64,000 nucleotides of DNA. It comes from Sphaerosporella brunnea (lineage: Eukaryota; Ascomycota; Pezizomycetes; Pezizales; Pyronemataceae). The notes under the pieces were generated by a model. It saw only the letters and a program-made list of their open reading frames with translations. It made no database searches and had not been told where the DNA came from. Both the position numbers and the translations under genes were made by a program. Shown here one piece after another: positions 1 through 26,263 of the stretch (positions within the stretch are counted from its first letter, which is position 1; the number at the start of each line of letters is the position of its first letter). The stretch covers positions 1-64,000 of the forward strand of contig VXIS01000163.1 in assembly GCA_008704415.1 (NCBI GenBank), read 5' to 3'.

Positions 1-320
1 GTCAGTGAATGACGCAGTTTGTGAACTTGGTTAACTTACGAGTAGGTCACCTTGTTGATGTCGGCTTGTTCGGAATCGCTCTCCGTCGGTGCCTTTCCAA
101 GGCTTAGAGGATAGGATGTCAGTGAATGACGCAGTTTGTGAACTTGGTTAACTTACGAGTAGGTCACCTTGTTGATGTCGGCTTATTCGGAATCGCTCTC
201 CGTCGGTGCTTTACAAGGCCTAGAGGATAGGATGTCAGTGAATTGCGTAGTTTGTGAACTTGGTTAACTTACGAGCAGGTCACCTTGTTGATGTCGGCTT
301 GTTCGGAATCGCTTGTTCCG
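1..320 (+). repeat. 117-bp tandem repeat, outer end of left arm
   Basis: Units beginning GTCAGTGAAT start at 1, 118 and 234, so the period is 116-117 bp and about 2.7 copies are visible. Each unit contains TTGGTTAACTTACGAG and CTCTCCGTCGGTGC. The third unit breaks off near 315 into unrelated sequence. No coding potential is seen. Confidence 0.95.
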
Positions 321-749
321 CAGTATCGTCGCTAAAGCTCCTCCACGGCTCCGCTCCAGAATGGAAGTGCTGTGTAGTCGCTCCGCATTCTCGAGTATGA
401 CGTTCTGGCGGATCGCGGCTTCTATCCGCTACGGCGGACAAAACCCGCAGGCCTGGTAGCGGTTATGGGTAGACGCGGTTGGTGGGCTAGACTGGTCGAG
501 GTTTGAGGATGCCCTGCTGTTACCTGCGTTCCTGAAGAGGTTGGGTGGCTGCGCGCTGCTCGCGGTAGTCGGTTGGAAATTGCATTGGTGGCATGTTGGG
601 GAAGTGGGAGAACCGTGGGTGTGGTATTTAAGGGATGGGGAGGTGGCGAGTAGGGCATCGAACCAAGCGCTCACGAGGAAACAGGGTTTAGGGAAAGGAT
701 TTCACGTTCACGCGCTGTCACACTCCTCGCTGTCGTGAGAACTTTATAC

Positions 750-1699
750 CTCAATTCAATCACTCTTCCCTCTTCCTCCTCCTCCTCCTCCTTGAGCTCC
801 ACCACCACTGCCGATTGCAGGCCGCCTTACAACCCGCAATCGATGCAAAGTGGTAGTTACAACGATACAACGCGTGGTGCTACTCCTGCACCGCATGAAA
901 TCGTCGCCTATCTTACCAACCAGTCGCGTCGGGCTTTCAGGGCTGACAGACTCTGCGTATCGCGAGTCACGCGTGACGTCGCTCTCGCTGCCACAAGTTA
1001 ACCTGTTCCTGTCAAGCAGGAGGGATCCAAGAAAGCCAAGGACGGCAAGGACGACAGCAACTTGCACGCAGACGAGAACCTATCTGATTGGCATAACGTG
1101 GTTGCTCATAGCCAGAATGGGATCATCGGAATTTACGATCCATCAGCGTCTCAGGGCGAAGTAAGTTGCTTTCTGATCCGTGACCTTAAAGGAGAGTACC
1201 GATTGACAGTAGTCTCATCGCAAGGTCGAAACACTAGAGCTAACTAAAGCGGTCCCAATTTCCCCTCGACGACCTCTCCCTACGTGCACACCACAGTGGA
1301 GTCCGTTACTTCCTCATCCATAATCAGTAAGGAATCTTACTGGGTAAAGACCTTCCCTTCGCTCTATAGTGGCCGAATAGATCGACGTTCTACAGCAACA
1401 AGCAGCCACTGGTTGTCACCGAGGGCATTTCCAGCTTCGACAAGGCGTTCAAACGCCCGGTGCAGGGAGAGAAAACCATTGAAGGGCCCCGGTATCGACT
1501 GGCATCACCTAGGCTGTCCTGGTCGACCCCAAAGCGCTGGTCCAACTGCGTGTACATGCCGCGCCCGGGGAACAAGGGAGAAGGCGTGAGGATGCTACCG
1601 CCCGGGTACATGTTCGGTGAATTTACGGAGGCGGCAGTTGGGCGGTTCTTTGGTGGCGCTGGATCTGTGGGCGAGGAATGGCTGGCTTCAGGAATGTGA
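750..1699 (+). CDS. Probable spliced gene, unrecognised (left arm copy)
   Basis: Separate open stretches have protein-like composition. One covers about 750-955 and has a serine-rich start. A second runs from about 1019 to 1160, is charged then polar, and ends exactly at a GTAAGT donor (1161). A third runs from about 1370 to a TGA at 1697-1699. A pyrimidine-rich tract ending CAG precedes the second stretch at 1018. The join to the third stretch is unresolved. No domain was recognised. The whole arrangement is repeated in mirror image at 20442-21391. The exon chain is inference. Confidence 0.3.
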
Positions 1700-1943
1700 G
1701 CGCCTTCTCAAGGCGTTGGATGGTTTGGTTATCAGGGTGATCGCGGGATACGAGGATAAGTCCCATCGCTATTCGCGATCCTCCTGAAGTGAGCACAGCA
1801 CACGGCTCATGCCCAGAGCCTGAGCAGCTCTGGGTATCGAGTGTCATGGAGCTCGGTGTGTCGCAATCCGCTGCTTGAGGATCTCAGCTCACCTCCATGA
1901 CCTTCACGGCTCCGCGAAAAGGGTGTGAACGGTTTCCTGCGCT

Positions 1944-2534
1944 TTGCACCACTCCCCGTCGCCATTGCGCGTCTTTTTTGAGCAGCACCTCCCGCCGTCG
2001 TTGGGCAGCAGCGTGACACCGAGCAGCCCATTAACCACGGGATTTCTAACCTTCCGAGGGTCCCGCGCACCCATGTTTTCCGGACACCGCGAGGCCGAGG
2101 AAGCGCGACAGTTCCGCGAGGCCATCGAGCGAAGCCTCAAAACCGGTCCGAATTCGGCGGCCGGCCAATCCCAAGCGCGCCACAACGGAATTTTCCTCCC
2201 GTCCCCACACAAAACAAAACGTCATGAACCACAACACTTCTGGTCGTCAGCAGAACTTCGAGGCGGTACATTCAAACCTTCTTCATACTGCACCCGTGCT
2301 CGAGCGACTACCACATTCGCTTTCATCATCGGCACCGTCCTCGAGCTAACCATCGTTTGCAACCGCCTCTTGGGAAACTTCAGCAGGGAAACAACTCCGC
2401 TGGCGGTCGGTTGCGGAGCTGTTCCGGAATGCAGTGGCGTCTTGTTGGGCGGGGGGGGGGGGGGAGAAGTATTTCGTTGTTGCTATCAGCTCGGTACATG
2501 CTATGAATTATTTGATTTTCTACTTAAGACATAA
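1944..2534 (+). CDS. Hypothetical ORF with a UIM-like segment (left arm)
   Basis: This open frame of 196 codons has no convincing full-length homology by eye. Around residues 50-67 the segment EEARQFREAIERSL fits the ubiquitin-interacting motif pattern (acidic run, then Ala-Ile-x-x-Ser-Leu). A hydrophobic stretch near residues 125-140 could be a membrane segment. The C-terminal part runs through a poly-G tract (about 2449-2463) and is doubtful. It may be one exon of a longer gene or a chance ORF. The UIM reading is a motif match only. Confidence 0.25.
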   Translation: MHHSPSPLRVFFEQHLPPSLGSSVTPSSPLTTGFLTFRGSRAPMFSGHREAEEARQFREAIERSLKTGPNSAAGQSQARHNGIFLPSPHKTKRHEPQHFWSSAELRGGTFKPSSYCTRARATTTFAFIIGTVLELTIVCNRLLGNFSRETTPLAVGCGAVPECSGVLLGGGGGGEVFRCCYQLGTCYELFDFLLKT

Positions 2535-3990
2535 ATTTGGGCTCGCTTTACAATAGTAGCTCGTACTTTAACAGTAGCAACGGAACCGCCACAAACAAAA
2601 TCCATAACGCCGCCAAAAACACCAGAAGCATGCATGGTACCCCACGGTATGGTAGGCATCAACTCTATCTTTCCGAACCAAAGCGACTCTACGGAGTTGG
2701 CAGGACGTGAAGCATGAAATATCACTCGCCCTTCTCCCACATGCTGGTTATCGAGGAAACCCTCAAAATGCAGGTCATTACGATTATCTTTTGTTTTTTT
2801 TTTTGTTTCTTTTTTTGTACCAGTCTCGATGTGGAAGAAACTAAGCATACGGTTAGTTTACCGGTTTTATTTCCGAAGACCATACGGCGGCTTTACACTC
2901 GCCTGGTCCCTTTCCGCAAAAGCCCTTGACTACGATTTCCAGGTTCCAACTCCAACCTTGCCACCAACACCCGCTCACCCCCTCCCCGTCCCACACCAAT
3001 CCGACAAACCTGCACCACCACAAACGTTAAAACTTCTTTCGCGATAGCTATCGACGCCTATATGTTTGCTTCTATCTCTCTCCCGAGGACCTGACAGCCG
3101 CGCCAGATCCGCCACGAGCTTAATCTAGCCACGGCGCTACAGCCAACGAAGCATGCTCAGGGAGATTAACTGCTGGAGAGGGTTTTGCCGAGCGGGGCAC
3201 TTCTCAACATAGGGAGCCGGGAAGCTGGACAAAAGAGAAGCGAGTGAGGGGGAAAGGAGGGGGTTCAGCACGCCTAAGCAGGGTGGGGATGAGAGGAGCG
3301 TGCTGGATGGATTTCACCGCTTGGGAATGCCCGGGACCGGAGTGAAGGATCCGCCACCATCGGGCTGCTCCAAGGGTTGATCATCTACGTTCCAATCGGC
3401 CATCAAACAGAGGAACTCTCGCCTCACAGACCTCCTTCGGACATATCTCAGTGTGAGCAACTTCCAGGGGCTCTCTCCTGATTTGGCCGGCCAGCCGGCG
3501 GACAAGGCAGCAGATGCGAGTGATGGTACATGTCCCGGCTATGCTGTAACTTCCTGAGCTGACCCAGGCTGTCAACGATGCTTGTCTCCCATGTTCGATA
3601 ACAAACGGAATCCGGAACGTCTACAATCTGTCGAGACAGACTGTCGCTCAGGCATAGCCACTGCGGCCATGCGCATCGGGCTTAGCGTCTACCGCCAATG
3701 TGGCTGAATCATCTCCGTCGCAACCAACAGCTTCTGGCGCTTCCCTCGGTCCGCGACTTTGCAGATCTGGTCTGCAGTTACACCCTGGCATCAGTGGCGA
3801 AACGGAAGCAGGCTGGATTAACTAAGAGGACGTAAGATTACACCGACGACCACTGCCCAGTCACAGCCCGTTTCGTGGTGCCGCAAAAGCACCCTGCAGC
3901 TGAGTTGATGATTTGTTAGTCAGGCCGACAAGGCTGTGTTGTGAACAAATCAGAGGTCCGGCGGCTAAGCAAGACAGGCATGCAGGACAC
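2535..3990. other. No gene recognised (left arm)
   Basis: Only short overlapping ORFs occur here. A T-rich run lies at about 2792-2816. No tRNA, TIR pair or domain was recognised. The mirror is 18150-19606. Confidence 0.6.
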
Positions 3991-4082
3991 CTATGCTGTT
4001 GCGCAGGAGTAACGTAACAAAACATGTATATCTACAACATCAGGTTCTCGAATTTGTTCCTACCTCGCAATTCAACGCCTTC

Positions 4083-5390
4083 ATGAACTCCACGATCCGC
4101 TCGACAAGCTGGGTGCACGGGCGCCCCTCCTCCTGGCAAAAAGACGACGCCTGGGAAGCGAATCTCCGCCCGCGAGAGATAAGCGGGAAAGAATGGGATG
4201 CCTACAAAGATCGGATCAAAGAGCTATATCTCCAGGACGGAATTATGCTGAAAGATGTGCGCCGACTTATTTACCAGATGCATGGATTCTATGCGACGTA
4301 AGCGCCAATCACTGCTACCCCCCCGCGCTTAGTCATAGCTGACGTTGTTTCGGGACCAGCGAAACACAATACAAGAAACGCATCCTCTGCGTGTGGAATT
4401 TCCAGAAAAATATCCCGAAACATAAGATGATGGCCATGCTCCAGATCCAGGATCGGAGACAGGCGGAGGATAACAAACCGACGATGTTTTCGTGGCACGG
4501 AAAGCCGGTGCCGGGGCAGAAGGTGGATCGTTCACGGAAACGATTCGGGAATCCAGCGCCCAGCGTAGCGTGCAGTATGTGCTCCTTATCTTCCGCGAAG
4601 GAGGGAAAAGCAGCACTTATATTCGCGAACAGGCACGCCCTCGTCGGTGGCGTATTGGACACCTCGGTTGCTGACACCGGACATCAACTGGTCACCACCG
4701 AGCCCCGGCAGCAACGAAAACGCCAAACCCGCAGCCTTTGATTCAAGTCTCCCAAGATCGGCTTCGGTGCCAGCTTATGCGGCCAGCTCAAGCATGAGTT
4801 CGCCGTTCTTCCGCGGCATGGATATCGCGGAACAAAATGAACTCGTTGCTCCGGTATTTTGCCTTCGCCGACTGTTGTTATACCGAAGCTTATCATATAA
4901 GAAGCCTATGCAAGCGGACTATTCCTTCTCCTCCGACATGGCAGGTCCTGATCCGGAATACCACCCATCGCAGCATCTCTACCACACCCCCATCCCGGAA
5001 GAACCAGCAGAACACCACGATCCCGATATCTTCACAAAAGAATCCTTAGCTGCGTACCAACCACCCTACAAAGCAGAAGCCATAGAAGCCATATCCGCCT
5101 ACGAGCCACCTTACAAAGCCTCCTCCGGGCGCTCACCCGAGCTCCTCCGCTTCCTCGCCGACAGGCTGGAACAAAGCGGCGACCAGTTCCTGAACACGAA
5201 GCAGCATGCGGATAGCGTGGCGCACTACGAAATGGCGCTGAGAAAGCGCGAGATGGCGGGGACGCAAGGCGACAAGAGGATCAGGGTTATCCTTTTGAAG
5301 TTGGCGGCGATGAATCTGGAGTTGGGGAATATGCCAGAGGCATCGAGATGGCTGGAGATGGTTGGGGAGCTTACGATGCCTGTGCAGTAG
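4083..5390 (+). CDS. Clr5-domain protein, left arm copy
   Basis: Clr5 domains are small N-terminal fungal domains found on putative regulators, named after fission-yeast Clr5. The first exon, from ATG 4083 (or 3993), encodes EWDAYKDRIKELYLQDG and then MHGFYAT. A 62-nt intron (4298-4359, GTAAG to CAG) restores the frame into ETQYKKRILCVWNFQKNIPK, the second half of the domain. A second intron probably starts at GTATGT (4575) and ends near 4712, leading to the frame that stops at 5390. The C-terminal 90 residues are helical and TPR-like. The protein is probably nuclear. The domain call is firm; the later splice sites are less so. Confidence 0.75.
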
Positions 5391-5418
5391 GAGGCGGGAA
5401 GTGGATTAAGGAACTATA

Positions 5419-5784
5419 ATGGGGCTGGAGATAGCTCGGAGTTGGTGGGCGGACTTTGCATTACTTTTGCGAGCGGTGGGGCCTTTTGCGGTGGTGTGTT
5501 TGAAGCTGGCCATCTTTTTCTCTATTGGGTTTTCATTTGGACCGCGACTGGGGTTGTTTTTGGCCGCTGCTGTAAGCTTGCTGGGGGCTCTTGCGGGAAG
5601 ATTTTTCTGTTCGAATTTCCCAAACAAGCCAGTATTTCTCCAAACACTAGACTTACTATTTATTGTACAGTGCCGGCGTGATCTACTCTACCCCCCGGAA
5701 GTGTGGCGGACGCACCAAACAAAGAGCCGAAGTACCCAGCGCCAACCCGGTGGTTCCTCATTGAGGCTTGAAGTTGTTTGGTGA
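5419..5784 (+). CDS. Small putative membrane protein (left arm)
   Basis: This 121-codon ORF starts 28 bp after the Clr5 stop on the same strand. Residues about 12-36 and 41-65 form two hydrophobic stretches rich in Leu, Phe, Ala and Gly, consistent with two membrane helices. The last 40 residues differ from the mirror copy because of an indel near 5696, so the true C-terminus is uncertain. No family was recognised. It might also be part of the Clr5 3' UTR. Confidence 0.35.
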   Translation: MGLEIARSWWADFALLLRAVGPFAVVCLKLAIFFSIGFSFGPRLGLFLAAAVSLLGALAGRFFCSNFPNKPVFLQTLDLLFIVQCRRDLLYPPEVWRTHQTKSRSTQRQPGGSSLRLEVVW

Positions 5785-8550
5785 TTATTGCCCGTTGGTA
5801 TTAGAGGCGCACACTACCGGCCTGATTGCGTCTAGAGATACGCCGATGGAGTGAGTTCGTTCTCGAGGTATCGCGTGTTGGATTTCGACGCAGGCTTGAT
5901 TCTGTTTATATGATGACATGCGCACTGTGCAGATCGACTCTCCACTTACAGAGAAACCGAGTGAAAGATGGCCTAAAGCCAACAACGCGGCAACATTTCC
6001 AGTCCTTCAATATCACAGCGACAGGGCACGCGGCATTTGTACAAGTTTACAAAACGAAAACAATTCACATTACCGAAACAACCATTCCACCAGCCACCAA
6101 CCAAAGACGCGCCAAAAGGATCCATTCGCGCCAGACAGCGAAAACCGGTGAGGCTCCTTTCCGTTCGCCGATACCCCATCTTTCGGCTCCGCCAAAGATC
6201 TAGACGATTCATCGAGAATCCCAGCTTCTCGGCGAAGCCAGCCGCCCGGTTGGTAAGCTTCAGCTTCTGCGGGGGCCGTTGTTCAGATGCGGCAAGCTCT
6301 GTGCGCGCGGCAGTGGCACGGGTTCCGGCGGCCGAGCCCTCCTGCGGCGTGAGCGGAACACTGAGGACCAGCGACAGAGGGAATGGGGGATAGGCCTGAT
6401 GGGAACGGGGGCCAGGAGCCACGCAAACGTGGGGGAAGGCTGGTCTCAACGGCGGGGTTGAATGTGCTCATTTCCGCGTGCGGAGCAAACTGGGCTGTCT
6501 TCTTGACCGCTGACTTCAGCGGGACGCGGAAATCACTGGCTGAGTCTCCGTGCCTTGGCCTGCGAAGTTAACAATTGCTCTCTCTCTCCAAGCGGCTGCG
6601 ATAATTTTCTGTAAAATCTCCAGCTCGAGCGCCCGTTGTGCTGCTAAAGCTCGATCTTCTCGCTGAACCACTCATCTTGTGCAGCCGCCGCCGCCGCCGT
6701 TCGATCCGAAGAAGTACACGCACGACCTTTGCGGCGGACGGCTGCGCTAGGCCGTGGCTGTAGCCGGTGTCCTAAGTAAGACGAGTAGCCGACTTTCTTG
6801 TCGACCCTGGGCATCTGCTCCTCCCATGGAGACGACCGAGCAAGGAAACCTGCTCTCGCGTTTGGCGGATTACCACTGCTTCTGTGATGAAAGCGTAGAA
6901 GTACATACCGCTCGCATGAGCCGTCGTCGTCGGTGTGACCCCGAAGCTGGCCATGATGCGGAAGCAGACCGTCCACCGGCTGTCCATGAGACAGAGCAAC
7001 GTGGACCTCGCGTTGTTTCGATCGCGGAAATGGAAACTACCGGCGAAGGTCAATTCCGGAGGCACATGTTCGATGTATGGCTTGAGAGTTAGAGAAAATA
7101 CCCAGCCTGCAATGTGAAACAGGCCAACCGCTGATACCAGAACTTTGTTCGTCAACTACCAGACAGACGTAAGGATTGACGCACCAGTGAAATTTCTGGC
7201 GAAGTATGCGTCACTTTGAAAGTATGTGCGGAAAGCAAAATCTAAATGCGTGCGTGCATCTAGGATAGGCTCGGGTCCATCACAACAATTATAAGCGGCC
7301 TTCTCCTGTTATTCAGCACCACCGTGCCACCACGCAACCATGGACAACAAGCACGCCCTGTTCCTCCAAACCACAGTCATCCCGCAACGTCCGAATCACA
7401 GAGATCCCACATCCCGGCCGCCGACCCCTTCCAACCGGCGTTTATCAGCACGGACAGCTCACCGACCGTCAGCTTTTTAAGGGACTTGGTCTCGCATTTG
7501 GCTGTGTTGCTGGTGTTCCTCTGGATATAGATGTAATCAACCGCGTTTCATCATACCAGCCTGGTTCCAGTCTCGGCATCGTTGCGAGGGCTTGTTCGCC
7601 GGATATCCTGGATCTGATCGTTCTTCCGGGTGTGGAGTATTATATATTCGACAATTTCCGGGAATACTGCCACTTCGAGTCCGGGACCCAGCGACGTGAG
7701 GAGTGGTAGATGTTGCAGGTTACCGCAACTTTACTCGAATAGCGATTACTTGATCCAACCAACGGCACGCCTTCTGCGACGGGGCAGAAACACGTTGTCC
7801 CACTGATGCTGGACACAGAGTTTCAATCCTGCCTACTGAATGCGATAAATCCGATCCCCTGAAATAGAGGATGAGCCGGCAGCAGCGTGTGGGGAAAATA
7901 CCCTCGTGTTACTGCCTGACGAGAAGTCGTATCTACGGACTGTTGGGCCGGTAGGACCCATGCTCTGACAAACGCCTTGCCGCCACAAACCACGGATGCC
8001 CATTTCCATAGGAAACACTTACCGTCCGAACAACGGTGCCCCTCGACGGTCGGCGCATTGGAAACGGGGCTAGCATCAACACCGTGATTGCCGAAGAGGT
8101 TTGAAAGTGGTTGCCACCCCCCGGGGGGTGCTTTGGTGGCCTTTGAGCAGGCTGTGGTTCGCTCCTATCGGACTGCGGAGCCGTATGGTGGGGAGGCGGA
8201 CGAAGACTGGAGAGTGGGCAAACTGCTCTGCTTGGTCGGCGGCTAAGCTCCCTTCCCCCCCCCCCCCCTCTCAGCATCAAGAGAGTGGCTTGCCATAATG
8301 GAGAGTGGCTTGCCATAATAGGCACGTGAGAAAACGCGGCGGTTCTTCGCCTTTCGAGTCGTCACGCAACGGCCAGCCCGTTTGCAAACGCGTACTGCTG
8401 GACCAGAGCAAACGCGCTCTCGGGGGGGGGGGGGTGTGAGAATTTCTCTGCACCCAGCTCAGCTCCAAAACCTCCTTCGATCACTTGTTGGATGAGCTGC
8501 TCGGCTTCTGGGGAGGCCTTCAGGCCGGTGGAGGACCTGATGGCGGAATG
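5785..8550. other. Diverged block of left arm, no intact gene
   Basis: Compared with its mirror this stretch has frequent one-base indels and some substitutions, for example GAGAAACCGAGTG against GAGAACCGGTG near 5950. It also has a poly-C insertion near 8250 and a poly-G insertion near 8421. Candidate frames on both strands (for example 6754-7092 +, 6772-7155 -) differ between arms, so none is reliable. A degenerate FAR1-like ORF lies across its inner edge on the minus strand (see 13413-13907 for the better copy). Confidence 0.7.
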
Positions 8551-8784
8551 ATAATCAATTGTGGTTCTGTCGAGACAGCGACTTCTCTTCGCGAAAGAAA
8601 GGGGGCAGCCGCAACTAGTGCGCACTGACAGTATTTTCTGTCCCTTGCGGGGGGAGGGGGGGGCTCGGCGCCCGCTCAGCGCATCACCGCCGCGGCTAAA
8701 ACTTAAAAGTCTTGGATGGATATGCCCTACGGGTCCCGCTCGAAGCAACAAAATGCATTTTGACCGAGGTGAGGTGAGATCCAA
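8277..8784 (-). pseudogene. FAR1-like domain remnant, interrupted (left arm)
   Basis: This is the mirror of 13413-13907. A run of about 13 G at 8421-8433 sits inside the frame where the right arm reads straight through (CTCTCGTGTGAG), so the left copy is split into two short ORFs. The insertion is homopolymeric and absent from the partner arm, so it may be a base-calling artefact and not a mutation. Confidence 0.4.
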
Positions 8785-9268
8785 CGACCGCCCGGCCAGA
8801 TCAGATTACACCAAGACTCGGCAGTTACACTCCACAACAGAAACCCTCCAAAAACGGCAACGCAAACCGAATGCATGGCAGAATGTTTTGAGACTAGACG
8901 TTCAATGGTTGTTGACATCTCCATTTTGAAAGTAAGTGAGCGTTTTCTACCGCGAGCCATCTTCTTTGCCCCGCAGCCTCGTACTATGCGAGTTGTTGGC
9001 TGGTCATACACTGCACTAGTGTCACTCTCCCGACACGAGTTTTGTTTGTTTGTAATCAGGTTTGTTGTCTGTATTCAACCGCGAAAGATCATGACAGACC
9101 CACTACACATCCCCACCCTAATCCTGTCCGCCCCCTTCTTGACGTTATCTCATGGGCCAACTGCGGCCACCCCGCATGCCAGGAAGAAAAGTATAGGAAG
9201 CGGAAAACAAACGAAAGAAAACATGCCGGTAATCAGCAGAAAACAAAGCCATGGCCTCCAGGGCCGAG

Positions 9269-10215
9269 TCACTCCTCCCCTCTCCCCCCCTCAGACGATG
9301 ACGTATCGTCCTCCTCCGCCACGGATTGCCCGACCTTTATATCCCGCAGAAACTGCAGGATATGAGGTGCGGCCCTTTCCCGGCACGAGTGAGCAAAACA
9401 CCTCCCACTTCCCGACAAGAAATCCCCGGCGTCGCCCCAGCTGGACTGTAGCTCATAGCCGTTGAGGCACGGGGTGTTTTGGGTACCAGTGGTAACTGGT
9501 GAGATACTATGAACCCACCATACACCTTCACTCTGCCACCGACAGCAAGCAGCCGGGCCCAGCGAGCCATCACGGAGTGAGCAAAACTCACGGCACGACT
9601 GGCCGCCGTCAAGTGTCTTATCAGCATCCGGGGCTCCGGCGTGGGGTTTTGTTGCTTAGCCACTTCGTCTTTCGGAGAAAGTGCACTTTCATCTTTTCCC
9701 ATCGAACCACTCAAGCTTCTGGTTGCAGAGAGTCCATTTTTTTTTTTTGGTTGTCCGCGAAGTCATCCACCCCTGCGGCTGTGCTAGTAGCACTGACAAC
9801 GCTCGGGATTTGCTGGCGGAAAGCCTGCGTACAAAATCAGCAGTAGGAAACGTACATCCATGACCTGTTGCCTCCGCCGGAAGGCGGGCACCGGAAAGCT
9901 CCCAACCCCTTGCACACCTCCTTCTGGCCACGCGCGTTCCCCCGTTGGCTTAGACACGAGTGAGTTGATGTGACTGGGGGAAAACACCCAAAGTTGACTA
10001 AGATTTCTGTTAATGCGCAACCACCGGGAACGTCGAACCCGATATCAACTTCCCAGATCGATGCATGGCAACCCTCCGCCTACATACCACAGGCTCAGTC
10101 TGCGATGGATCGGTTCAACCTCCCTTGTTGTAGCTCGCATGGCTTCTATCCGCTGGATGGAGTGGTATGCCTCGCAGCGATCTGCTTCACGGCGATATGT
10201 TGGCTTGGTGTCCAT
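9269..10215 (-). CDS. Probable three-exon gene, unrecognised (left arm)
   Basis: This is the mirror of the gene described at 11982-12928, with the same ATG (10213-10215), same first intron and same stop (9269-9271). Both copies have identical open segments. The function is unknown. The exon structure is inferred from splice signals and frame agreement only. Confidence 0.33.
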
Positions 10216-10547
10216 GCCACCGAAACGACAGCTGCTGCGTGCAAGGGGGAAGACCCATGCCATTAACCATCTCAAGCCCCCCAAGGTGCAAAAGATTGCC
10301 CCTCCCTCACCCCGCACAAAATTGTTGGGGTTTGTAAGGTTGACGGGGTGATCGCTTTCTTCTTGCGCGGCGTATTTCTATAGTATCGATGCCTACGATT
10401 CTCGAGGACTCCGCACGCCAGCCCCGCGGTCGACGGCGGGAGCGTAGCAGAAGCCCCGCCTCCGTGGCGGGAAAAAAAAACACAAGCGCGACAAAGCAGC
10501 GGCGGGGGGGGGGAAGGTGTATGTAATTTTCCAGAAAATCCGGTCGA

Positions 10548-10950
10548 CTACGCAGTAACATCAGCCCAACACCTCCACCACGGGCCCTTCCAAAGCCTGC
10601 GCCCGCACGGGCGCCACGGCAGCCACTCAGGCCACTCGCGCATGCACAGAACGTACGCGGCCAGGAGCAGGGCAGCGACAGCGGCGAGCGCCAGCGCCGC
10701 GGCCACGTCCCGCACCCGCGGCACCCAGGGGCGGCGGCACGAAAGCCACGCTGTGGCCGCCAGCCACACAGCCGAGAGCTGCAGCGCGAGGTCTTCGGTC
10801 GCAGTAGCAGCGCGCGCCGATGGGGGCGCACCAGGTCTCGCCTTCGAGGCGGTGGCGGAGGTAGGTGGCGGTGCAGCTGGTGAGGAGGAGGGTGGAGGAG
10901 AGGAGGACGGAGACGCCGAGGTGCGCTGCGAGGCGGTCTGCGGGAGGCAT
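10548..10950 (-). pseudogene. Small membrane-protein gene, frameshifted copy (left arm)
   Basis: This is the mirror of 11248-11649. One extra base near 10797 (GACCGAAG where the right arm has GACGAAG on the coding strand) shifts the frame after residue 51. The N-terminal signal-like helix and the C-terminal part are therefore in different frames. It is either a real lesion in one copy or a sequencing indel. Confidence 0.6.
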
Positions 10951-11247
10951 GTTTGCGTGTGTGATGCTAGGCTCGGGCGGGGGGGGGAGGTGAGGGCTTT
11001 TTTTTTTTTTTTTGCTTTGTTCAACTTGGGGGGGTGTGTTCTAGTCGATTGCGGCAAAGCTGCTCAGCTTGTGGGATTGGATGAATGTCCGGTGTGCCCG
11101 CACACCGGACATTCATCCAATCCCCAAGCTGAGCAGCTTTGCCGCAATCGACTAGAACACACCCCCCCAAGTTGAACAAAGCAAAAAAAAAAAAAAAAAG
11201 CCCTCACCTCCCCCCCCCCGCCCGAGCCTAGCATCACACACGCAAAC
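10951..11247. promoter_or_regulatory. Palindrome centre, shared divergent upstream region
   Basis: The region holds the 4-base spacer (11097-11100), a poly-T run at about 11000-11017 and its poly-A mirror at about 11183-11200. The two halves differ only by small indels, such as one T in CTTGTGGG against CTTGGGG. If the palindrome is real, both membrane-protein genes would share this as an upstream region. No TATA box was recognised. Confidence 0.5.
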
Positions 11248-11649
11248 ATGCCTCCCGCAGACCGCCTCGCAGCGCACCTCGGCGTCTCCGTCCTCCTCTC
11301 CTCCACCCTCCTCCTCACCAGCTGCACCGCCACCTACCTCCGCCACCGCCTCGAAGGCGAGACCTGGTGCGCCCCCATCGGCGCGCGCTGCTACTGCGAC
11401 GAAGACCTCGCGCTGCAGCTCTCGGCTGTGTGGCTGGCGGCCACAGCGTGGCTTTCGTGCCGCCGCCCCTGGGTGCCGCGGGTGCGGGACGTGGCCGCGG
11501 CGCTGGCGCTCGCCGCTGTCGCTGCCCTGCTCCTGGCCGCGTACGTTCTGTGCATGCGCGAGTGGCCTGAGTGGCTGCCGTGGCGCCCGTGCGGGCGCAG
11601 GCTTTGGAAGGGCCCGTGGTGGAGGTGTTGGGCTGATGTTACTGCGTAG
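11248..11649 (+). CDS. Small membrane protein, intact copy (right arm)
   Basis: This is an ORF of 133 codons. Residues about 8-28 form a hydrophobic leader ending in Leu-Leu-Thr-Ser-Cys, residues 55-70 and about 80-102 form further hydrophobic segments, and the C-terminus is rich in Trp, Arg and Cys. Two or three membrane passes are likely. The gene starts about 150 bp from the palindrome centre and points outward, facing its twin across a 297-bp divergent gap. GC content is high and the frame lacks stops over its length. No family was recognised. Confidence 0.5.
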   Translation: MPPADRLAAHLGVSVLLSSTLLLTSCTATYLRHRLEGETWCAPIGARCYCDEDLALQLSAVWLAATAWLSCRRPWVPRVRDVAAALALAAVAALLLAAYVLCMREWPEWLPWRPCGRRLWKGPWWRCWADVTA

Positions 11650-11981
11650 TCGACCGGATTTTCTGGAAAATTACATACACCTTCCCCCCCCCCGCCGCTG
11701 CTTTGTCGCGCTTGTGTTTTTTTTTCCCGCCACGGAGGCGGGGCTTCTGCTACGCTCCCGCCGTCGACCGCGGGGCTGGCGTGCGGAGTCCTCGAGAATC
11801 GTAGGCATCGATACTATAGAAATACGCCGCGCAAGAAGAAAGCGATCACCCCGTCAACCTTACAAACCCCAACAATTTTGTGCGGGGTGAGGGAGGGGCA
11901 ATCTTTTGCACCTTGGGGGGCTTGAGATGGTTAATGGCATGGGTCTTCCCCCTTGCACGCAGCAGCTGTCGTTTCGGTGGC

Positions 11982-12928
11982 ATGGACACCAAGCCAACAT
12001 ATCGCCGTGAAGCAGATCGCTGCGAGGCATACCACTCCATCCAGCGGATAGAAGCCATGCGAGCTACAACAAGGGAGGTTGAACCGATCCATCGCAGACT
12101 GAGCCTGTGGTATGTAGGCGGAGGGTTGCCATGCATCGATCTGGGAAGTTGATATCGGGTTCGACGTTCCCGGTGGTTGCGCATTAACAGAAATCTTAGT
12201 CAACTTTGGGTGTTTTCCCCCAGTCACATCAACTCACTCGTGTCTAAGCCAACGGGGGAACGCGCGTGGCCAGAAGGAGGTGTGCAAGGGGTTGGGAGCT
12301 TTCCGGTGCCCGCCTTCCGGCGGAGGCAACAGGTCATGGATGTACGTTTCCTACTGCTGATTTTGTACGCAGGCTTTCCGCCAGCAAATCCCGAGCGTTG
12401 TCAGTGCTACTAGCACAGCCGCAGGGGTGGATGACTTCGCGGACAACCAAAAAAAAAAAATGGACTCTCTGCAACCAGAAGCTTGAGTGGTTCGATGGGA
12501 AAAGATGAAAGTGCACTTTCTCCGAAAGACGAAGTGGCTAAGCAACAAAACCCCACGCCGGAGCCCCGGATGCTGATAAGACACTTGACGGCGGCCAGTC
12601 GTGCCGTGAGTTTTGCTCACTCCGTGATGGCTCGCTGGGCCCGGCTGCTTGCTGTCGGTGGCAGAGTGAAGGTGTATGGTGGGTTCATAGTATCTCACCA
12701 GTTACCACTGGTACCCAAAACACCCCGTGCCTCAACGGCTATGAGCTACAGTCCAGCTGGGGCGACGCCGGGGATTTCTTGTCGGGAAGTGGGAGGTGTT
12801 TTGCTCACTCGTGCCGGGAAAGGGCCGCACCTCATATCCTGCAGTTTCTGCGGGATATAAAGGTCGGGCAATCCGTGGCGGAGGAGGACGATACGTCATC
12901 GTCTGAGGGGGGGAGAGGGGAGGAGTGA
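11982..12928 (+). CDS. Probable three-exon gene, unrecognised (right arm)
   Basis: Exon 1 runs from ATG 11982 to 12109. Intron 1 is 12110-12223 (GTATGT donor, TTTTCCCCCAG acceptor) and keeps the frame. Exon 2 ends at 12341 before GTACGT. A CAG at 12596-12598 would start exon 3 in phase and run 109 codons to TGA 12926-12928, giving about 191 residues. Exon 3 is rich in Cys and Trp, followed by an acidic-serine tail (AEEDDTSSSEGG). No domain was recognised. A long second intron (257 nt) is the weak point. A secreted or membrane signal is not evident. Confidence 0.35.
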
Positions 12929-13412
12929 CTCGGCCCTGGAGGCCATGGCTTTGTTTTCTGCTGATTACCGGCATGTTTTCTTTCGTTTGTTTTCCGCTTC
13001 CTATACTTTTCTTCCTGGCATGCGGGGTGGCCGCAGTTGGCCCATGAGATAACGTCAAGAAGGGGGCGGACAGGATTAGGGTGGGGATGTGTAGTGGGTC
13101 TGTCATGATCTTTCGCGGTTGAATACAGACAACAAACCTGATTACAAACAAACAAAACTCGTGTCGGGAGAGTGACACTAGTGCAGTGTATGACCAGCCA
13201 ACAACTCGCATAGTACGAGGCTGCGGGGCAAAGAAGATGGCTCGCGGTAGAAAACGCTCACTTACTTTCAAAATGGAGATGTCAACAACCATTGAACGTC
13301 TAGTCTCAAAACATTCTGCCATGCATTCGGTTTGCGTTGCCGTTTTTGGAGGGTTTCTGTTGTGGAGTGTAACTGCCGAGTCTTGGTGTAATCTGATCTG
13401 GCCGGGCGGTCG

Positions 13413-13907
13413 TTGGATCTCACCTCACCTCGGTCAAAATGCATTTTGTTGCTTCGAGCGGGACCCGTAGGGCATATCCATCCAAGACTTTTAAGTTTTA
13501 GCCGCGGCGGTGATGCGCTGAGCGGGCGCCGAGCCCCCCCCTCCCCCCGCAAGGGACAGAAAATACTGTCAGTGCGCACTAGTTGCGGCTGCCCCCTTTC
13601 TTTCGCGAAGAGAAGTCGCTGTCTCGACAGAACCACAATTGATTATCATTCCGCCATCAGGTCCTCCACCGGCCTGAAGGCCTCCCCAGAAGCCGAGCAG
13701 CTCATCCAACAAGTGATCGAAGGAGGTTTTGGAGCTGAGCTGGGTGCAGAGAAATTCTCACACGAGAGCGCGTTTGCTCTGGTCCAGCAGTACGCGTTTG
13801 CAAACGGGCTGGCCGTGCGTGACGACTCGAAAGGCGAAGAACCGCCGCGTTTTCTCACGTGCCTATTATGGCAAGCCACTCTCCATTATGGCAAGCCACT
13901 CTCTTGA
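13413..13907 (+). pseudogene. FAR1-like domain remnant (right arm)
   Basis: The frame is open for 164 codons. Its second half holds SHESAFALVQQYAFANGLAV followed by a charged stretch and a Cys, the pattern of the FAR1/FHY3-type WRKY-GCM1 DNA-binding domain seen at the N-terminus of fungal MULE transposases (F/S-x-E-x-A....YA...G). The Cys/His ligands of a full domain are not all visible and no transposase core follows. It is probably a broken MULE-derived gene. Just after it, a 20-bp segment ending CAAGCCACTCTC is duplicated (about 13866-13905). Confidence 0.4.
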
Positions 13908-16376
13908 TGCTGAGAGAAGGGAGCTTAGCCGCCGACCAAGCAGAGCAGTTTGCCCACTCTCCAGTCTTCGTCGCCTCCCCACCATACGGCTCCGCAGTCC
14001 GATAGGAGCGAACCACAGCCTGCTCAAAGGCCACCAAAGCACCCCCGGGGGGTGGCAACCACTTTCAAACCTCTTCGGCAATCACGGTGTTGATGCTAGC
14101 CCGTTTCCAATGCGCCGACCGTCGAGGGGGCACCGTTGGCGGACGGTAAGTGTTTCCTATGAAAATGGGCATCCGTGGTTTGTGGCGGCAAGTGGTTTGT
14201 CAGAGCATGGGTCTACCGCCAAACAGTCCGTAGATACGATTCTCGTCAGGCAGTAACACCGAGGGTATTTTCCACCACACACAGCTGCTGCCGGGATCAT
14301 CCTCTATTTCAGGGATCGGATTTATCGCATTCAGTAGGCAGGATGAAACTCTGTGTCCAGCATCAGTGGACAACGTGTTCTGCACCCTGGTCGAGAAGCG
14401 TGCCGTTGGTTGGATCAAGTAACGTCTATTCGAGTCAAAGTTGCGGTAACCTGCAACATCTACCACTCCTCACGCGCTGGTCCGGACTCGAAGTGGCAGT
14501 ATTCCGGAAATGTCGATAATAATACTCCACACCCGGAAGACACGATCAGATCCAGGATATCCGCGAACAGCCCTCCGCAACGATGTCGAGACTGGAAACA
14601 GGCTGGTATGATGGAAAACGCGGTTGATTACATCTATATCCAGAGGAAACACCAGCAACACAGCCAAATGCGAGACCAAGTCCCTTAAAAAGCTGACGGC
14701 GGTGAGCTGTCCGTGCTGATTAAACGCCGGTTTGGAGGGGTCGGCGGCAGGGATTGGGTATCTCTGTGATTCGGACGTTGCGGGATGAATGTGGTTTGGA
14801 GGAACAGGGCAGTGCTTGTTGTCCATGGTTGCGTGGTGGCACGGTGGTGCTGAATAACAGGAGAAGCCGCTTATAATTGTTGTGATGGACCCGAGCTATC
14901 CTAGATGCACGCCACGCATTTAGATTTGCTTCCGCACATACTTTCAAAGTGAGCATACTTCTGCCAGAAATTCATGGTGCGTCAATCTTACGTCTGTCTG
15001 GTAGTTGACGAACAAGTTCTGGTATCAGCGGTTGGCATGTTCACATTGCAGCTGGTATTTCTTAACTCTCAAGCCATACATCGAACATGTGCCTCCGGAA
15101 TGACCTTCGCCGGTAGTTTCCATTTCCGCGATCGAAACAACGCCGAGGTACCACGTTTGCTCTGTCTCACGGACAGCCGGTGGACGGTCTGCTTCCGCAT
15201 CATGGCCAGCTTCGGGTCACACGACGACGACGGCTCATGCGAGGGTATGTACTTCTACGCTTTCATCACAGAAGCAGTGGTAATCCGCCAAACGCGAGAG
15301 CAGGTTTCCTTGCTCGGTCGTCTCCATGGGAGGAGCAGATGCAGGGTCGACAAGAAAGTACAGCGCACTCGTCTTACTTAGGACACAGGACTACAGCCAC
15401 GGCCTAGCGCAGCCGTCCGCCGCAAAGGTCGTGCGTGTACTTCTTCGGATCGAACGGCGGCGGCACGGCGGCTGCACAAGATGAGTGGTTCAGCGAGAAG
15501 ATCGAGCTTTAGCAGCACAACGGGCGCTCGAGTGGAGATTTTACAGAAAATTATCGCAGCCGTTGGAGAGGAGAGAGCAATTGTTAACTTCGACAGGCCA
15601 GCACGGAGACTCAGCAGTGATTCCGCGCGTCCCGTGAAGTCAGCGGTCAAGAAGACAGCCCAGTTGGCCGCACGCGGAAATGAGCACATTCAACCCCGCC
15701 GTTGAGACCAGCCTTCCCCCACGTTTGCGTGGCTCCTGGCCCCCTGTTCACATCAGCCTATCCCCATTCCCTCGTCGATGGTCACTCAGTGTTCCGCTCA
15801 CGCCGCAGGAGGGATCGGGCCGCCGGAACCCGTGCCACTGCCGCGCGCACAGAGCTTGCCGCATTGAACAACGGCCCCCGCAGAAGCTGAAGCTTACCAA
15901 CCGGGCGGCTGGCTCGCGAGAAGCTGGATTCTCGATGAATCGTCTAGATCTTTGGCGGAGCCGAAAGATGGGGTATCGGCGAACGGAAAGGAGCCTCACG
16001 GTTTCGCTGTTGGCGCGAATGGATCCTTTGGCGCGTCTTTGGTTGGTGGCTGGTGGAATGGTTGTTTCGGTAATGTGAATTGTTTTCGTTTTGTAAACTG
16101 TACAAATGCCGCGTGCCCTGTCGCTGTGATATTGAAGGACTGGAAATGTTGCCGCGTGTTGGCTTTCAGGCCATCTTTCACCGGTTCTCTGTAAGTGGAG
16201 AGTCGATCTGCACAGTGCGCATGTCATCATATAAACAGAATCAAGCCTGCGTCGAAATCACAACACGCGATACCTCGAGAACGAACTCACTCCATCGGCG
16301 TATCTCTAGACGCAATCAGGCCGGTAGTGTGCGCCTCTAATACCAACGGGCAATAATCACCAAACAACTTCAAGCC
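13908..16376. other. Diverged block of right arm, no intact gene
   Basis: This is the mirror of about 5785-8270. Frames such as 14974-15381 + and 15481-15705 + are open here but shifted or broken in the left arm. Without knowing which arm is correct, no gene can be called. Confidence 0.6.
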
Positions 16377-16721
16377 TCAATGAGGAACCACCGGGTTGGC
16401 GCTGGGTACTTCGGCTCTTTGTTTGGTGCGTCCGCCACACTTCCGGGGGTAGAGTAGATCACGCCGGCACTGTACAATAAATAGTAAGTCTAGTGTTTGG
16501 AGAAATACTGGCTTGTTTGGGAAATTCGAACAGAAAAATCTTCCCGCAAGAGCCCCCAGCAAGCTTACAGCAGCGGCCAAAAACAACCCCAGTCGCGGTC
16601 CAAATGAAAACCCAATAGAGAAAAAGATGGCCAGCTTCAAACACACCACCGCAAAAGGCCCCACCGCTCGCAAAAGTAATGCAAAGTCCGCCCACCAACT
16701 CCGAGCTATCTCCAGCCCCAT
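16377..16721 (-). CDS. Small putative membrane protein (right arm)
   Basis: This is the mirror of 5419-5784 with 114 codons. The first 92 residues or so, containing both hydrophobic stretches, agree with the left copy. After LLYP the reading frame differs by one base and ends earlier. Only one of the two C-termini can be original. Confidence 0.35.
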   Translation of the reverse strand: MGLEIARSWWADFALLLRAVGPFAVVCLKLAIFFSIGFSFGPRLGLFLAAAVSLLGALAGRFFCSNFPNKPVFLQTLDLLFIVQCRRDLLYPRKCGGRTKQRAEVPSANPVVPH

Positions 16722-16749
16722 TATAGTTCCTTAATCCACTTCCCGCCTC

Positions 16750-18057
16750 CTACTGCACAGGCATCGTAAGCTCCCCAACCATCTCCAGCCATCTCGATGC
16801 CTCTGGCATATTCCCCAACTCCAGATTCATCGCCGCCAACTTCAAAAGGATAACCCTGATCCTCTTGTCGCCTTGCGTCCCCGCCATCTCGCGCTTTCTC
16901 AGCGCCATTTCGTAGTGCGCCACGCTATCCGCATGCTGCTTCGTGTTCAGGAACTGGTCGCCGCTTTGTTCCAGCCTGTCGGCGAGGAAGCGGAGGAGCT
17001 CGGGTGAGCGCCCGGAGGAGGCTTTGTAAGGTGGCTCGTAGGCGGATATGGCTTCTATGGCTTCTGCTTTGTAGGGTGGTTGGTACGCAGCTAAGGATTC
17101 TTTTGTGAAGATATCGGGATCGTGGTGTTCTGCTGGTTCTTCCGGGATGGGGGTGTGGTAGAGATGCTGCGATGGGTGGTATTCCGGATCAGGACCTGCC
17201 ATGTCGGAGGAGAAGGAATAGTCCGCTTGCATAGGCTTCTTATATGATAAGCTTCGGTATAACAACAGTCGGCGAAGGCAAAATACCGGAGCAACGAGTT
17301 CATTTTGTTCCGCGATATCCATGCCGCGGAAGAACGGCGAACTCATGCTTGAGCTGGCCGCATAAGCTGGCACCGAAGCCGATCTTGGGAGACTTGAATC
17401 AAAGGCTGCGGGTTTGGCGTTTTCGTTGCTGCCGGGGCTCGGTGGTGACCAGTTGATGTCCGGTGTCAGCAACCGAGGTGTCCAATACGCCACCGACGAG
17501 GGCGTGCCTGTTCGCGAATATAAGTGCTGCTTTTCCCTCCTTCGCGGAAGATAAGGAGCACATACTGCACGCTACGCTGGGCGCTGGATTCCCGAATCGT
17601 TTCCGTGAACGATCCACCTTCTGCCCCGGCACCGGCTTTCCGTGCCACGAAAACATCGTCGGTTTGTTATCCTCCGCCTGTCTCCGATCCTGGATCTGGA
17701 GCATGGCCATCATCTTATGTTTCGGGATATTTTTCTGGAAATTCCACACGCAGAGGATGCGTTTCTTGTATTGTGTTTCGCTGGTCCCGAAACAACGTCA
17801 GCTATGACTAAGCGCGGGGGGGTAGCAGTGATTGGCGCTTACGTCGCATAGAATCCATGCATCTGGTAAATAAGTCGGCGCACATCTTTCAGCATAATTC
17901 CGTCCTGGAGATATAGCTCTTTGATCCGATCTTTGTAGGCATCCCATTCTTTCCCGCTTATCTCTCGCGGGCGGAGATTCGCTTCCCAGGCGTCGTCTTT
18001 TTGCCAGGAGGAGGGGCGCCCGTGCACCCAGCTTGTCGAGCGGATCGTGGAGTTCAT
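16750..18057 (-). CDS. Clr5-domain protein, right arm copy
   Basis: This is the mirror copy of the gene at 4083-5390. The first intron is at about 17781-17842 and the stop is at 16750. The translated segments of the two copies are identical in every open frame compared, so both would be intact if the palindrome is real. It has the same Clr5 half-domains, the same TPR-like C-terminal helices and the same small membrane ORF just downstream (16377-16721). An upstream alternative ATG is at 18147. Confidence 0.75.
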
Positions 18058-18149
18058 GAAGGCGTTGAATTGCGAGGTAGGAACAAATTCGAGAACCTGA
18101 TGTTGTAGATATACATGTTTTGTTACGTTACTCCTGCGCAACAGCATAG

Positions 18150-19606
18150 GTGTCCTGCATGCCTGTCTTGCTTAGCCGCCGGACCTCTGATTTGTTCACA
18201 ACACAGCCTTGTCGGCCTGACTAACAAATCATCAACTCAGCTGCAGGGTGCTTTTGCGGCACCACGAAACGGGCTGTGACTGGGCAGTGGTCGTCGGTGT
18301 AATCTTACGTCCTCTTAGTTAATCCAGCCTGCTTCCGTTTCGCCACTGATGCCAGGGTGTAACTGCAGACCAGATCTGCAAAGTCGCGGACCGAGGGAAG
18401 CGCCAGAAGCTGTTGGTTGCGACGGAGATGATTCAGCCACATTGGCGGTAGACGCTAAGCCCGATGCGCATGGCCGCAGTGGCTATGCCTGAGCGACAGT
18501 CTGTCTCGACAGATTGTAGACGTTCCGGATTCCGTTTGTTATCGAACATGGGAGACAAGCATCGTTGACAGCCTGGGTCAGCTCAGGAAGTTACAGCATA
18601 GCCGGGACATGTACCATCACTCGCATCTGCTGCCTTGTCCGCCGGCTGGCCGGCCAAATCAGGAGAGAGCCCCTGGAAGTTGCTCACACTGAGATATGTC
18701 CGAAGGAGGTCTGTGAGGCGAGAGTTCCTCTGTTTGATGGCCGATTGGAACGTAGATGATCAACCCTTGGAGCAGCCCGATGGTGGCGGATCCTTCACTC
18801 CGGTCCCGGGCATTCCCAAGCGGTGAAATCCATCCAGCACGCTCCTCTCATCCCCACCCTGCTTAGGCGTGCTGAACCCCCTCCTTTCCCCCTCACTCGC
18901 TTCTCTTTTGTCCAGCTTCCCGGCTCCCTATGTTGAGAAGTGCCCCGCTCGGCAAAACCCTCTCCAGCAGTTAATCTCCCTGAGCATGCTTCGTTGGCTG
19001 TAGCGCCGTGGCTAGATTAAGCTCGTGGCGGATCTGGCGCGGCTGTCAGGTCCTCGGGAGAGAGATAGAAGCAAACATATAGGCGTCGATAGCTATCGCG
19101 AAAGAAGTTTTAACGTTTGTGGTGGTGCAGGTTTGTCGGATTGGTGTGGGACGGGGAGGGGGTGAGCGGGTGTTGGTGGCAAGGTTGGAGTTGGAACCTG
19201 GAAATCGTAGTCAAGGGCTTTTGCGGAAAGGGACCAGGCGAGTGTAAAGCCGCCGTATGGTCTTCGGAAATAAAACCGGTAAACTAACCGTATGCTTAGT
19301 TTCTTCCACATCGAGACTGGTACAAAAAAAGAAACAAAAAAAAAAAACAAAAGATAATCGTAATGACCTGCATTTTGAGGGTTTCCTCGATAACCAGCAT
19401 GTGGGAGAAGGGCGAGTGATATTTCATGCTTCACGTCCTGCCAACTCCGTAGAGTCGCTTTGGTTCGGAAAGATAGAGTTGATGCCTACCATACCGTGGG
19501 GTACCATGCATGCTTCTGGTGTTTTTGGCGGCGTTATGGATTTTGTTTGTGGCGGTTCCGTTGCTACTGTTAAAGTACGAGCTACTATTGTAAAGCGAGC
19601 CCAAAT
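18150..19606. other. No gene recognised (right arm)
   Basis: This is the mirror of 2535-3990, with the same short ORFs and an A-rich run near 19323-19350. Nothing further is supported. Confidence 0.6.
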
Positions 19607-20197
19607 TTATGTCTTAAGTAGAAAATCAAATAATTCATAGCATGTACCGAGCTGATAGCAACAACGAAATACTTCTCCCCCCCCCCCCCCGCCCAACAAG
19701 ACGCCACTGCATTCCGGAACAGCTCCGCAACCGACCGCCAGCGGAGTTGTTTCCCTGCTGAAGTTTCCCAAGAGGCGGTTGCAAACGATGGTTAGCTCGA
19801 GGACGGTGCCGATGATGAAAGCGAATGTGGTAGTCGCTCGAGCACGGGTGCAGTATGAAGAAGGTTTGAATGTACCGCCTCGAAGTTCTGCTGACGACCA
19901 GAAGTGTTGTGGTTCATGACGTTTTGTTTTGTGTGGGGACGGGAGGAAAATTCCGTTGTGGCGCGCTTGGGATTGGCCGGCCGCCGAATTCGGACCGGTT
20001 TTGAGGCTTCGCTCGATGGCCTCGCGGAACTGTCGCGCTTCCTCGGCCTCGCGGTGTCCGGAAAACATGGGTGCGCGGGACCCTCGGAAGGTTAGAAATC
20101 CCGTGGTTAATGGGCTGCTCGGTGTCACGCTGCTGCCCAACGACGGCGGGAGGTGCTGCTCAAAAAAGACGCGCAATGGCGACGGGGAGTGGTGCAA
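19607..20197 (-). CDS. Hypothetical ORF with a UIM-like segment (right arm)
   Basis: This is the exact mirror of the 196-codon ORF at 1944-2534, with the same UIM-like Ala-Ile-x-x-Ser-Leu segment and the same homopolymer tract (here poly-C, about 19678-19690). The same doubts apply. Confidence 0.25.
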   Translation of the reverse strand: MHHSPSPLRVFFEQHLPPSLGSSVTPSSPLTTGFLTFRGSRAPMFSGHREAEEARQFREAIERSLKTGPNSAAGQSQARHNGIFLPSPHKTKRHEPQHFWSSAELRGGTFKPSSYCTRARATTTFAFIIGTVLELTIVCNRLLGNFSRETTPLAVGCGAVPECSGVLLGGGGGGEVFRCCYQLGTCYELFDFLLKT

Positions 20198-20441
20198 AGC
20201 GCAGGAAACCGTTCACACCCTTTTCGCGGAGCCGTGAAGGTCATGGAGGTGAGCTGAGATCCTCAAGCAGCGGATTGCGACACACCGAGCTCCATGACAC
20301 TCGATACCCAGAGCTGCTCAGGCTCTGGGCATGAGCCGTGTGCTGTGCTCACTTCAGGAGGATCGCGAATAGCGATGGGACTTATCCTCGTATCCCGCGA
20401 TCACCCTGATAACCAAACCATCCAACGCCTTGAGAAGGCGC

Positions 20442-21391
20442 TCACATTCCTGAAGCCAGCCATTCCTCGCCCACAGATCCAGCGCCACCAAAGAACCGCC
20501 CAACTGCCGCCTCCGTAAATTCACCGAACATGTACCCGGGCGGTAGCATCCTCACGCCTTCTCCCTTGTTCCCCGGGCGCGGCATGTACACGCAGTTGGA
20601 CCAGCGCTTTGGGGTCGACCAGGACAGCCTAGGTGATGCCAGTCGATACCGGGGCCCTTCAATGGTTTTCTCTCCCTGCACCGGGCGTTTGAACGCCTTG
20701 TCGAAGCTGGAAATGCCCTCGGTGACAACCAGTGGCTGCTTGTTGCTGTAGAACGTCGATCTATTCGGCCACTATAGAGCGAAGGGAAGGTCTTTACCCA
20801 GTAAGATTCCTTACTGATTATGGATGAGGAAGTAACGGACTCCACTGTGGTGTGCACGTAGGGAGAGGTCGTCGAGGGGAAATTGGGACCGCTTTAGTTA
20901 GCTCTAGTGTTTCGACCTTTGCGATGAGACTACTGTCAATCGGTACTCTCCTTTAAGGTCACGGATCAGAAAGCAACTTACTTCGCCCTGAGACGCTGAT
21001 GGATCGTAAATTCCGATGATCCCATTCTGGCTATGAGCAACCACGTTATGCCAATCAGATAGGTTCTCGTCTGCGTGCAAGTTGCTGTCGTCCTTGCCGT
21101 CCTTGGCTTTCTTGGATCCCTCCTGCTTGACAGGAACAGGTTAACTTGTGGCAGCGAGAGCGACGTCACGCGTGACTCGCGATACGCAGAGTCTGTCAGC
21201 CCTGAAAGCCCGACGCGACTGGTTGGTAAGATAGGCGACGATTTCATGCGGTGCAGGAGTAGCACCACGCGTTGTATCGTTGTAACTACCACTTTGCATC
21301 GATTGCGGGTTGTAAGGCGGCCTGCAATCGGCAGTGGTGGTGGAGCTCAAGGAGGAGGAGGAGGAGGAAGAGGGAAGAGTGATTGAATTGA
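20442..21391 (-). CDS. Probable spliced gene, unrecognised (right arm copy)
   Basis: This is the mirror copy of the candidate at 750-1699, with the same open stretches and the same GTAAGT donor read on the minus strand (near 20981). The two copies give the same translated segments, so this locus was not affected by the indels seen elsewhere in the arms. Its function is unknown. Confidence 0.3.
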
Positions 21392-21834
21392 GGTATAAAG
21401 TTCTCACGACAGCGAGGAGTGTGACAGCGCGTGAACGTGAAATCCTTTCCCTAAACCCTGTTTCCTCGTGAGCGCTTGGTTCGATGCCCTACTCGCCACC
21501 TCCCCATCCCTTAAATACCACACCCACGGTTCTCCCACTTCCCCAACATGCCACCAATGCAATTTCCAACCGACTACCGCGAGCAGCGCGCAGCCACCCA
21601 ACCTCTTCAGGAACGCAGGTAACAGCAGGGCATCCTCAAACCTCGACCAGTCTAGCCCACCAACCGCGTCTACCCATAACCGCTACCAGGCCTGCGGGTT
21701 TTGTCCGCCGTAGCGGATAGAAGCCGCGATCCGCCAGAACGTCATACTCGAGAATGCGGAGCGACTACACAGCACTTCCATTCTGGAGCGGAGCCGTGGA
21801 GGAGCTTTAGCGACGATACTGCGGAACAAGCGAT

Positions 21835-22165
21835 TCCGAACAAGCCGACATCAACAAGGTGACCTGCTCGTAAGTTAACCAAGTTCACAAACTACGCAAT
21901 TCACTGACATCCTATCCTCTAGGCCTTGTAAAGCACCGACGGAGAGCGATTCCGAATAAGCCGACATCAACAAGGTGACCTACTCGTAAGTTAACCAAGT
22001 TCACAAACTGCGTCATTCACTGACATCCTATCCTCTAAGCCTTGGAAAGGCACCGACGGAGAGCGATTCCGAACAAGCCGACATCAACAAGGTGACCTAC
22101 TCGTAAGTTAACCAAGTTCACAAACTGCGTCATTCACTGACATCCTATCCTCTAGGCCTTGCAAT
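21835..22165 (-). repeat. 117-bp tandem repeat, outer end of right arm
   Basis: This is the mirror of the repeats at 1-320, in reverse orientation. The last unit runs a few bases past the mirror of position 1 and then joins GCAATGGTTGCATCG, which leads into a different tandem repeat. The array therefore marks the junction between palindrome and single-copy flank. Confidence 0.93.
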
Positions 22166-25985: not shown

Positions 25986-26077
25986 AACCACACATCGCGA
26001 CGCGACACGCAACACGACGAACAAACGACTCTTTCCTCATGTTCTCGCGTGGCAGCCAGAAGACGATGAAAGAGAGG

Positions 26078-26263
26078 TCGCGTCAACCGGAGGCAGTGCA
26101 ATACCGGTGACACAGTGGAGGCCGACATGCGCAAGCGCAGCGGCCAGCCCCCTCAGTGCAAAAATTAGATTAATAAATGACGATCCATATAGGACCATTT
26201 CAGATATTAAACTGAAAAGAACAGATACTACACTTGATCTAAGCCAAAAGGCTGAAGAGTTTA
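26078..26263 (-). ncRNA. U2 spliceosomal snRNA
   Basis: Read on the minus strand, the 5' part GCCTTTTGGCTTAGATCAAG then TGTAGTATCTGTTC is the highly conserved U2 5' domain, including the GUAGUA branch-point recognition sequence. TCAGTTTAATATCTGAAA (stem-loop II region), an Sm site (AUUUUUG near 26163) and a 3' GC hairpin (GGCCG...CGGCC) follow. Its length of about 186 nt is normal. Ends are set by comparison with the known U2 layout. A TATA-like box (CTATAAATT, near 26400) lies upstream at a suitable distance. It base-pairs with intron branch sites in the nucleus. Confidence 0.88.

Follow-up and report, generated by a model that had tools for sequence, protein, structure and literature searches.

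A PacBio read that results from a missed adapter, or from a strand jump of the polymerase, carries the template followed by its reverse complement, up to the length of the insert. Both events are listed among the artefacts of PacBio reads (PMC6304105). Fold-back artefact reads have also been described: after its first segment, such a read returns to the same locus on the reverse strand, in many cases with no intervening sequence; according to the authors they most likely originate during library preparation, and they were found mainly in Nanopore data and virtually not at all in three PacBio samples, which were of the modern HiFi type (PMC12870357). The palindromic reads obtained after whole-genome amplification and treated under the name Pacasus are likewise inverted-repeat PacBio chimeras, and they harm assembly (PMC6218980).

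The published genome of Sphaerosporella brunnea, a member of the ascomycete order Pezizales, was obtained from a PacBio low-input, 10 kb library and assembled with Falcon, finisherSC and Arrow into 872 contigs and 51.60 Mb, whereas the assembly analysed here comprises 640 contigs and 50,565,648 bases (50.57 Mb). The genome announcement mentions neither fold-backs nor amplification (PMC6908789). The structures reported here differ from the published fold-back reads in that they are found in finished contigs and not in reads, and belong to an older PacBio low-input assembly, a type that was not among the samples of that survey (PMC12870357). They differ from the Pacasus case (PMC6218980) in that no amplification is stated for the S. 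brunnea genome. A literature search on fold-backs in Falcon assemblies returned nothing on point.

Results

Geometry of the palindrome in contig C72

The window, that is, the whole stretch of 64,000 nucleotides that was analysed, corresponds to bases 1-64000 of contig C72 (101,696 bases), whose physical end coincides with position 1. Alignment of positions 1-22141 with their own opposite strand gave a single full-length match to 22141-1, with 98.50% identity over 22,276 columns, confirming the near-perfect 22-kb palindrome reported in a preliminary description of this DNA; a match of this kind cannot be due to chance. The features of the palindrome are as follows.

1..11097, minus strand: left (terminal) arm, which mirrors the right one as its reverse complement and starts at contig base 1
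11098..11099, no strand: unpaired centre, CC, with pairing around the turn
11100..22141, plus strand: right (inner) arm, running on into the rest of the contig
13700..16460, plus strand: patch of the right arm holding most arm differences, with its mirror at about 5690-8440
1..313, minus strand: 116-117-bp tandem array in the left arm, truncated where the contig stops
21829..22161, plus strand: right-arm copy of this array, its last 20 bp lying past the mirror point 22141
3993..5387, plus strand: left-arm copy of a Clr5-domain gene
16753..18147, minus strand: right-arm copy of the Clr5-domain gene (Pfam PF14420)

The 11.1-kb arms agreed with those described earlier, but the 4-bp spacer CCCG proposed at 11097-11100 did not hold, as C11097 pairs with G11100 and leaves the two-nucleotide centre CC; 25 perfect pairs follow up to the first indel. 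The left arm exceeds the right one by 55 bp. Pairing had also been said to reach position 1, and it does: it extends that far because position 1 is base 1 of C72, and the left arm lacks a flank because it stops where the contig stops. The mirror point 22141 falls 20 bp inside the end of the 117-bp array. The right arm is probably the single true copy, and the left arm is probably not genomic in its present position.

Differences between the arms

The two arms of this palindrome differ by 161 letters (97 present only in the left arm, 42 only in the right arm and 22 substitutions), so that indels account for 139 of them. Nearly all of these letters, 155 of the 161, lie within one patch of 2.8 kb, and the other six, each an indel of one base, are scattered across about 8.3 kb. 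A run of 12 C and a run of 13 G, both confined to the left arm, are among the difference events. The share of doubled bases in the patch, taken as a guide to which arm is in error, was 0.2677 in the left arm and 0.2497 in the right arm, with a mean of 0.2709 (SD 0.0153) in flank windows. Either arm may be the one in error; a noisy patch in the inner arm would be contrary to what a lone fold-back read suggests, namely errors in the terminal arm.

The palindromes at other contig ends, described below, were compared in the same way. The arms in C6 showed 13 differences (8 indels and 5 substitutions), all of them in the outer contig bases (8-247); those in C19 showed seven, four within the outer 47 bases; and those at the right end of C72 differed by three single-base indels. 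The arms in C3 were the noisiest, with 94.9% identity and 707 differences, 630 of which are letters absent from the terminal arm; roughly 380 of these absent letters apparently form one block between two aligned pieces. We infer that indel-rich patches and errors clustered at contig termini reflect poorly corrected long-read sequence; diverging genomic copies would be expected to differ mainly by substitutions, all along the arms.

Recurrence at contig ends

The survey covered 20 contig starts, as the first 10 kb of C1 to C19 and, in C72, the window, together with three right ends, each as its last 8 kb (C72, C6 and C19). Tight fold-backs were present at five of these 23 contig ends, four among the 20 starts (C3, C6, C19 and C72) and one among the three right ends (C72). 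The remaining 18, including the right ends of C6 and C19 (last 8 kb), had no tight fold-back inside the stretch of 8-10 kb seen, which longer arms could escape. On the right, C72 closes with a palindrome of 2,969 bases (98728-101696) that includes the final base and has a 4-nt spacer. The palindromes of C6 (1-11918) and C19 (1-9212) start with the very first base of their contigs. That of C3 starts at base 235 at the latest; its far side is truncated in the stretch that was fetched. The unpaired centres measure 2 nt at the left end of C72, 4 nt in C6, 1 nt in C19, 4 nt at the right end of C72 and 32 nt in the noisy C3, and the arm lengths at the five ends are about 1.5, 4.6, 6.0, 7 or more, and 11.1 kb.

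A scan for tight palindromes (arm of at least 300, spacer of at most 60) was run over 319,992 bases, comprising positions 22162-64000 of the window and the fetched loci with the omission of five C72 loci; this sample consists mostly of contig starts, with an interior part proper of about 100 kb. It returned only four tight palindromes, in C3, C6 and C19 and at the right end of C72, each of them contig-terminal.

Two looser inverted pairs were observed outside the five that we counted. Bases 1-1122 of C7 recur inverted at 2930-4048 (91.7% identity, 73 gap letters, 1.8 kb between the copies), and this contig start is perhaps a fold-back with a long loop. In C1, a 440-bp inverted pair at 9052-10000 (95% identity) has a spacer of 69 nt, above the limit of the scan; it is non-terminal and cut by the end of the stretch.

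Searches for a second copy, adapters and telomeres

A genome search with positions 11100-13100 recovered both arms of C72 with high identity. Among the 40 scored of 177 candidates it also gave at least 39 other matches of 73-81% over about 220-300 bp, which represent a dispersed repeat. With the tandem array as query, the matches were its two copies in C72 plus a further one of 101 bp (81%). Neither search found a second near-identical place beyond the two arms, with the same scope of 40 scored among 177 candidates for 11100-13100. In contrast to missed-adapter reads, no adapter remnant was detected at the five centres (window, C3, C6, C19 and right end of C72) with two exact pieces, 14 and 16 nt long, of the adapter sequence. 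A telomere was also considered for the window and rejected, as it has no doubled TTAGGG or TTTAGGG in either orientation.

Discussion

Origin of the palindrome

Judging from the sequence evidence, we consider it highly probable that the palindrome of C72 is a sequencing or assembly artefact, in which fold-back reads have been built into contig ends; the same error almost certainly affects the other end of C72 and other contig ends of this assembly. The preliminary description had left two options, a real unstable palindrome and a fold-back read joined into an assembly, and the second one is strongly supported because of the terminal position, the lack of a second flank and the second fold-back at the other end of C72, together with the three further contig ends that behave alike, the indel-rich differences and arms close to the library size that was stated. 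A real palindrome would be expected to have unique flank to its left and its right, and the assembly gives none on the left. By contrast, what is expected of a fold-back was observed: a contig-end position without a flank of its own, a spacer of a few bases, recurrence at unrelated places, and an arm of no more than about one library insert, 11.1 kb being slightly above the nominal 10 kb. The overall range of arm lengths, about 1.5 to 11.1 kb, is compatible with a 10-kb library.

A plausible course of events begins with a long PacBio read that would have come to the end of its molecule and turned back to read the complementary strand, no adapter being recognised. Falcon seeds assembly from the longest reads. 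An assembler that starts in this way would preferentially choose fold-back reads, which could be as much as two inserts long, and such seeds would end up as contig ends. The true contig C72 would then start near 11100, and positions 11100-22141 would occur once in the genome. Candidate causes of the turn itself are DNA ends closed by hairpins, a switch of strand, a missed adapter that disappeared from the consensus, amplification, and the contig-upgrading step.

Several observations count against an artefact. The noisy patch of C72 may lie in the inner arm, and the contig ends within 20 bp of the edge of the tandem array, as the boundary of a real inverted repeat also could give; in our judgement both are outweighed by the presence of two fold-backs on C72 and by their recurrence on three other contigs. 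In addition, 18 of the 23 contig ends lacked a tight fold-back in the 8-10 kb inspected, and the centres yielded no match to the two adapter pieces. The near-absence of fold-backs in the modern PacBio HiFi survey weighs somewhat against PacBio reads as the source, although the library type differs.

Alternative explanations

Within the class of artefacts, whole-genome amplification before sequencing might have produced the inverted molecules, in place of hairpin ends or a strand switch at the library stage. Palindromic fragments from amplification are documented in PacBio data (PMC6218980) and the S. brunnea library is termed low-input, but the genome paper does not speak of amplification (PMC6908789), and we regard this origin as unlikely. 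A fold made by software, for instance by finisherSC attaching reads or the contig's own reverse complement at contig ends, also seems doubtful. This program was used for the published assembly (PMC6908789), and the terminal arm of C3, poorly corrected throughout, resembles a raw read appended to the contig; the finisherSC route is, however, inferred, and the almost perfect arms of C6 and C19, with spacers of 1-4 nt, are easier to obtain from real inverted molecules.

A real 22-kb genomic palindrome, with gene conversion keeping the arms alike and with the assembler breaking at its far edge where the flanks were indistinguishable, is in our view very improbable. It would account for the position of the contig end at the array edge and for arms that are nearly identical except for one patch, and assembly breaks at true palindromes would likewise give a location at a contig end. 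Nevertheless, besides the missing left flank, no other contig carries an arm at high identity among the matches scored, and this explanation needs nearly spacerless palindromes at both ends of C72 and at three more of the ends examined, while the errors of C3, C6 and C19 are raw-read-like or terminal, unlike divergence. Finally, it is scarcely credible that this fungus harbours many real kilobase-scale, almost spacerless palindromes, for example as fold-back ends of chromosomes or fragments, whose instability fragments the assembly in such a way that contig ends mark the palindromes; if this were true the genome would be full of long spacerless palindromes, which would be very surprising.

Consequences for gene content

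Taking the palindrome as an artefact, it has no biological significance and matters to the users of the assembly. A gene inside a contig-end fold-back appears in two head-to-head copies, a pair that could pass for a recent duplication, an inverted repeat or a hairpin-RNA locus. In C72, the two copies of the Clr5-domain gene have equal match scores, and the gene matches the hypothetical protein FN846DRAFT_960076 of S. brunnea with 93% identity at 92% query coverage. On the present sequence-based reading, the genes of the arms are probably single copy, and the Clr5-domain gene should probably be counted once. Contig ends of this type can be detected by aligning them to their own reverse complement.

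Other elements in the window

The window contains two dispersed repeats, one at 12817-13100, mirrored in the left arm, with at least 39 further matches at 73-81%, and another at about 23074-23310, to which most of at least about 50 further matches belong. Five near-identical 108-nt tRNA matches were identified with Rfam (43135-43242, 45963-46070, 53373-53480, 54917-55024 and 56615-56722); they occur in both orientations, in repeated blocks about 90-98% alike, and their length leaves room for an intron. ARAGORN, run with the bacterial code, reported no tRNA in the window. Two Rfam matches to U2 snRNA, at 26072-26264 and 35088-35288, lie 9 kb apart and score 157.2 and 67.6 bits, respectively; the two loci share 77.7% identity, adjoining sequence included, and the second one may be a decayed duplicate. 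The U2 and tRNA matches together mark the DNA as eukaryotic.

A DNA transposon occupies positions 59997-62592. Its inverted repeats, each about 330 bp and 85% alike, enclose a 635-aa DDE_1 / Tc5-HTH transposase frame at 60204-62111 on the minus strand; relatives include unnamed proteins with up to 81% identity. A further tandem array, at 39809-40782, consists of eleven 88-bp units that are about 90% alike.
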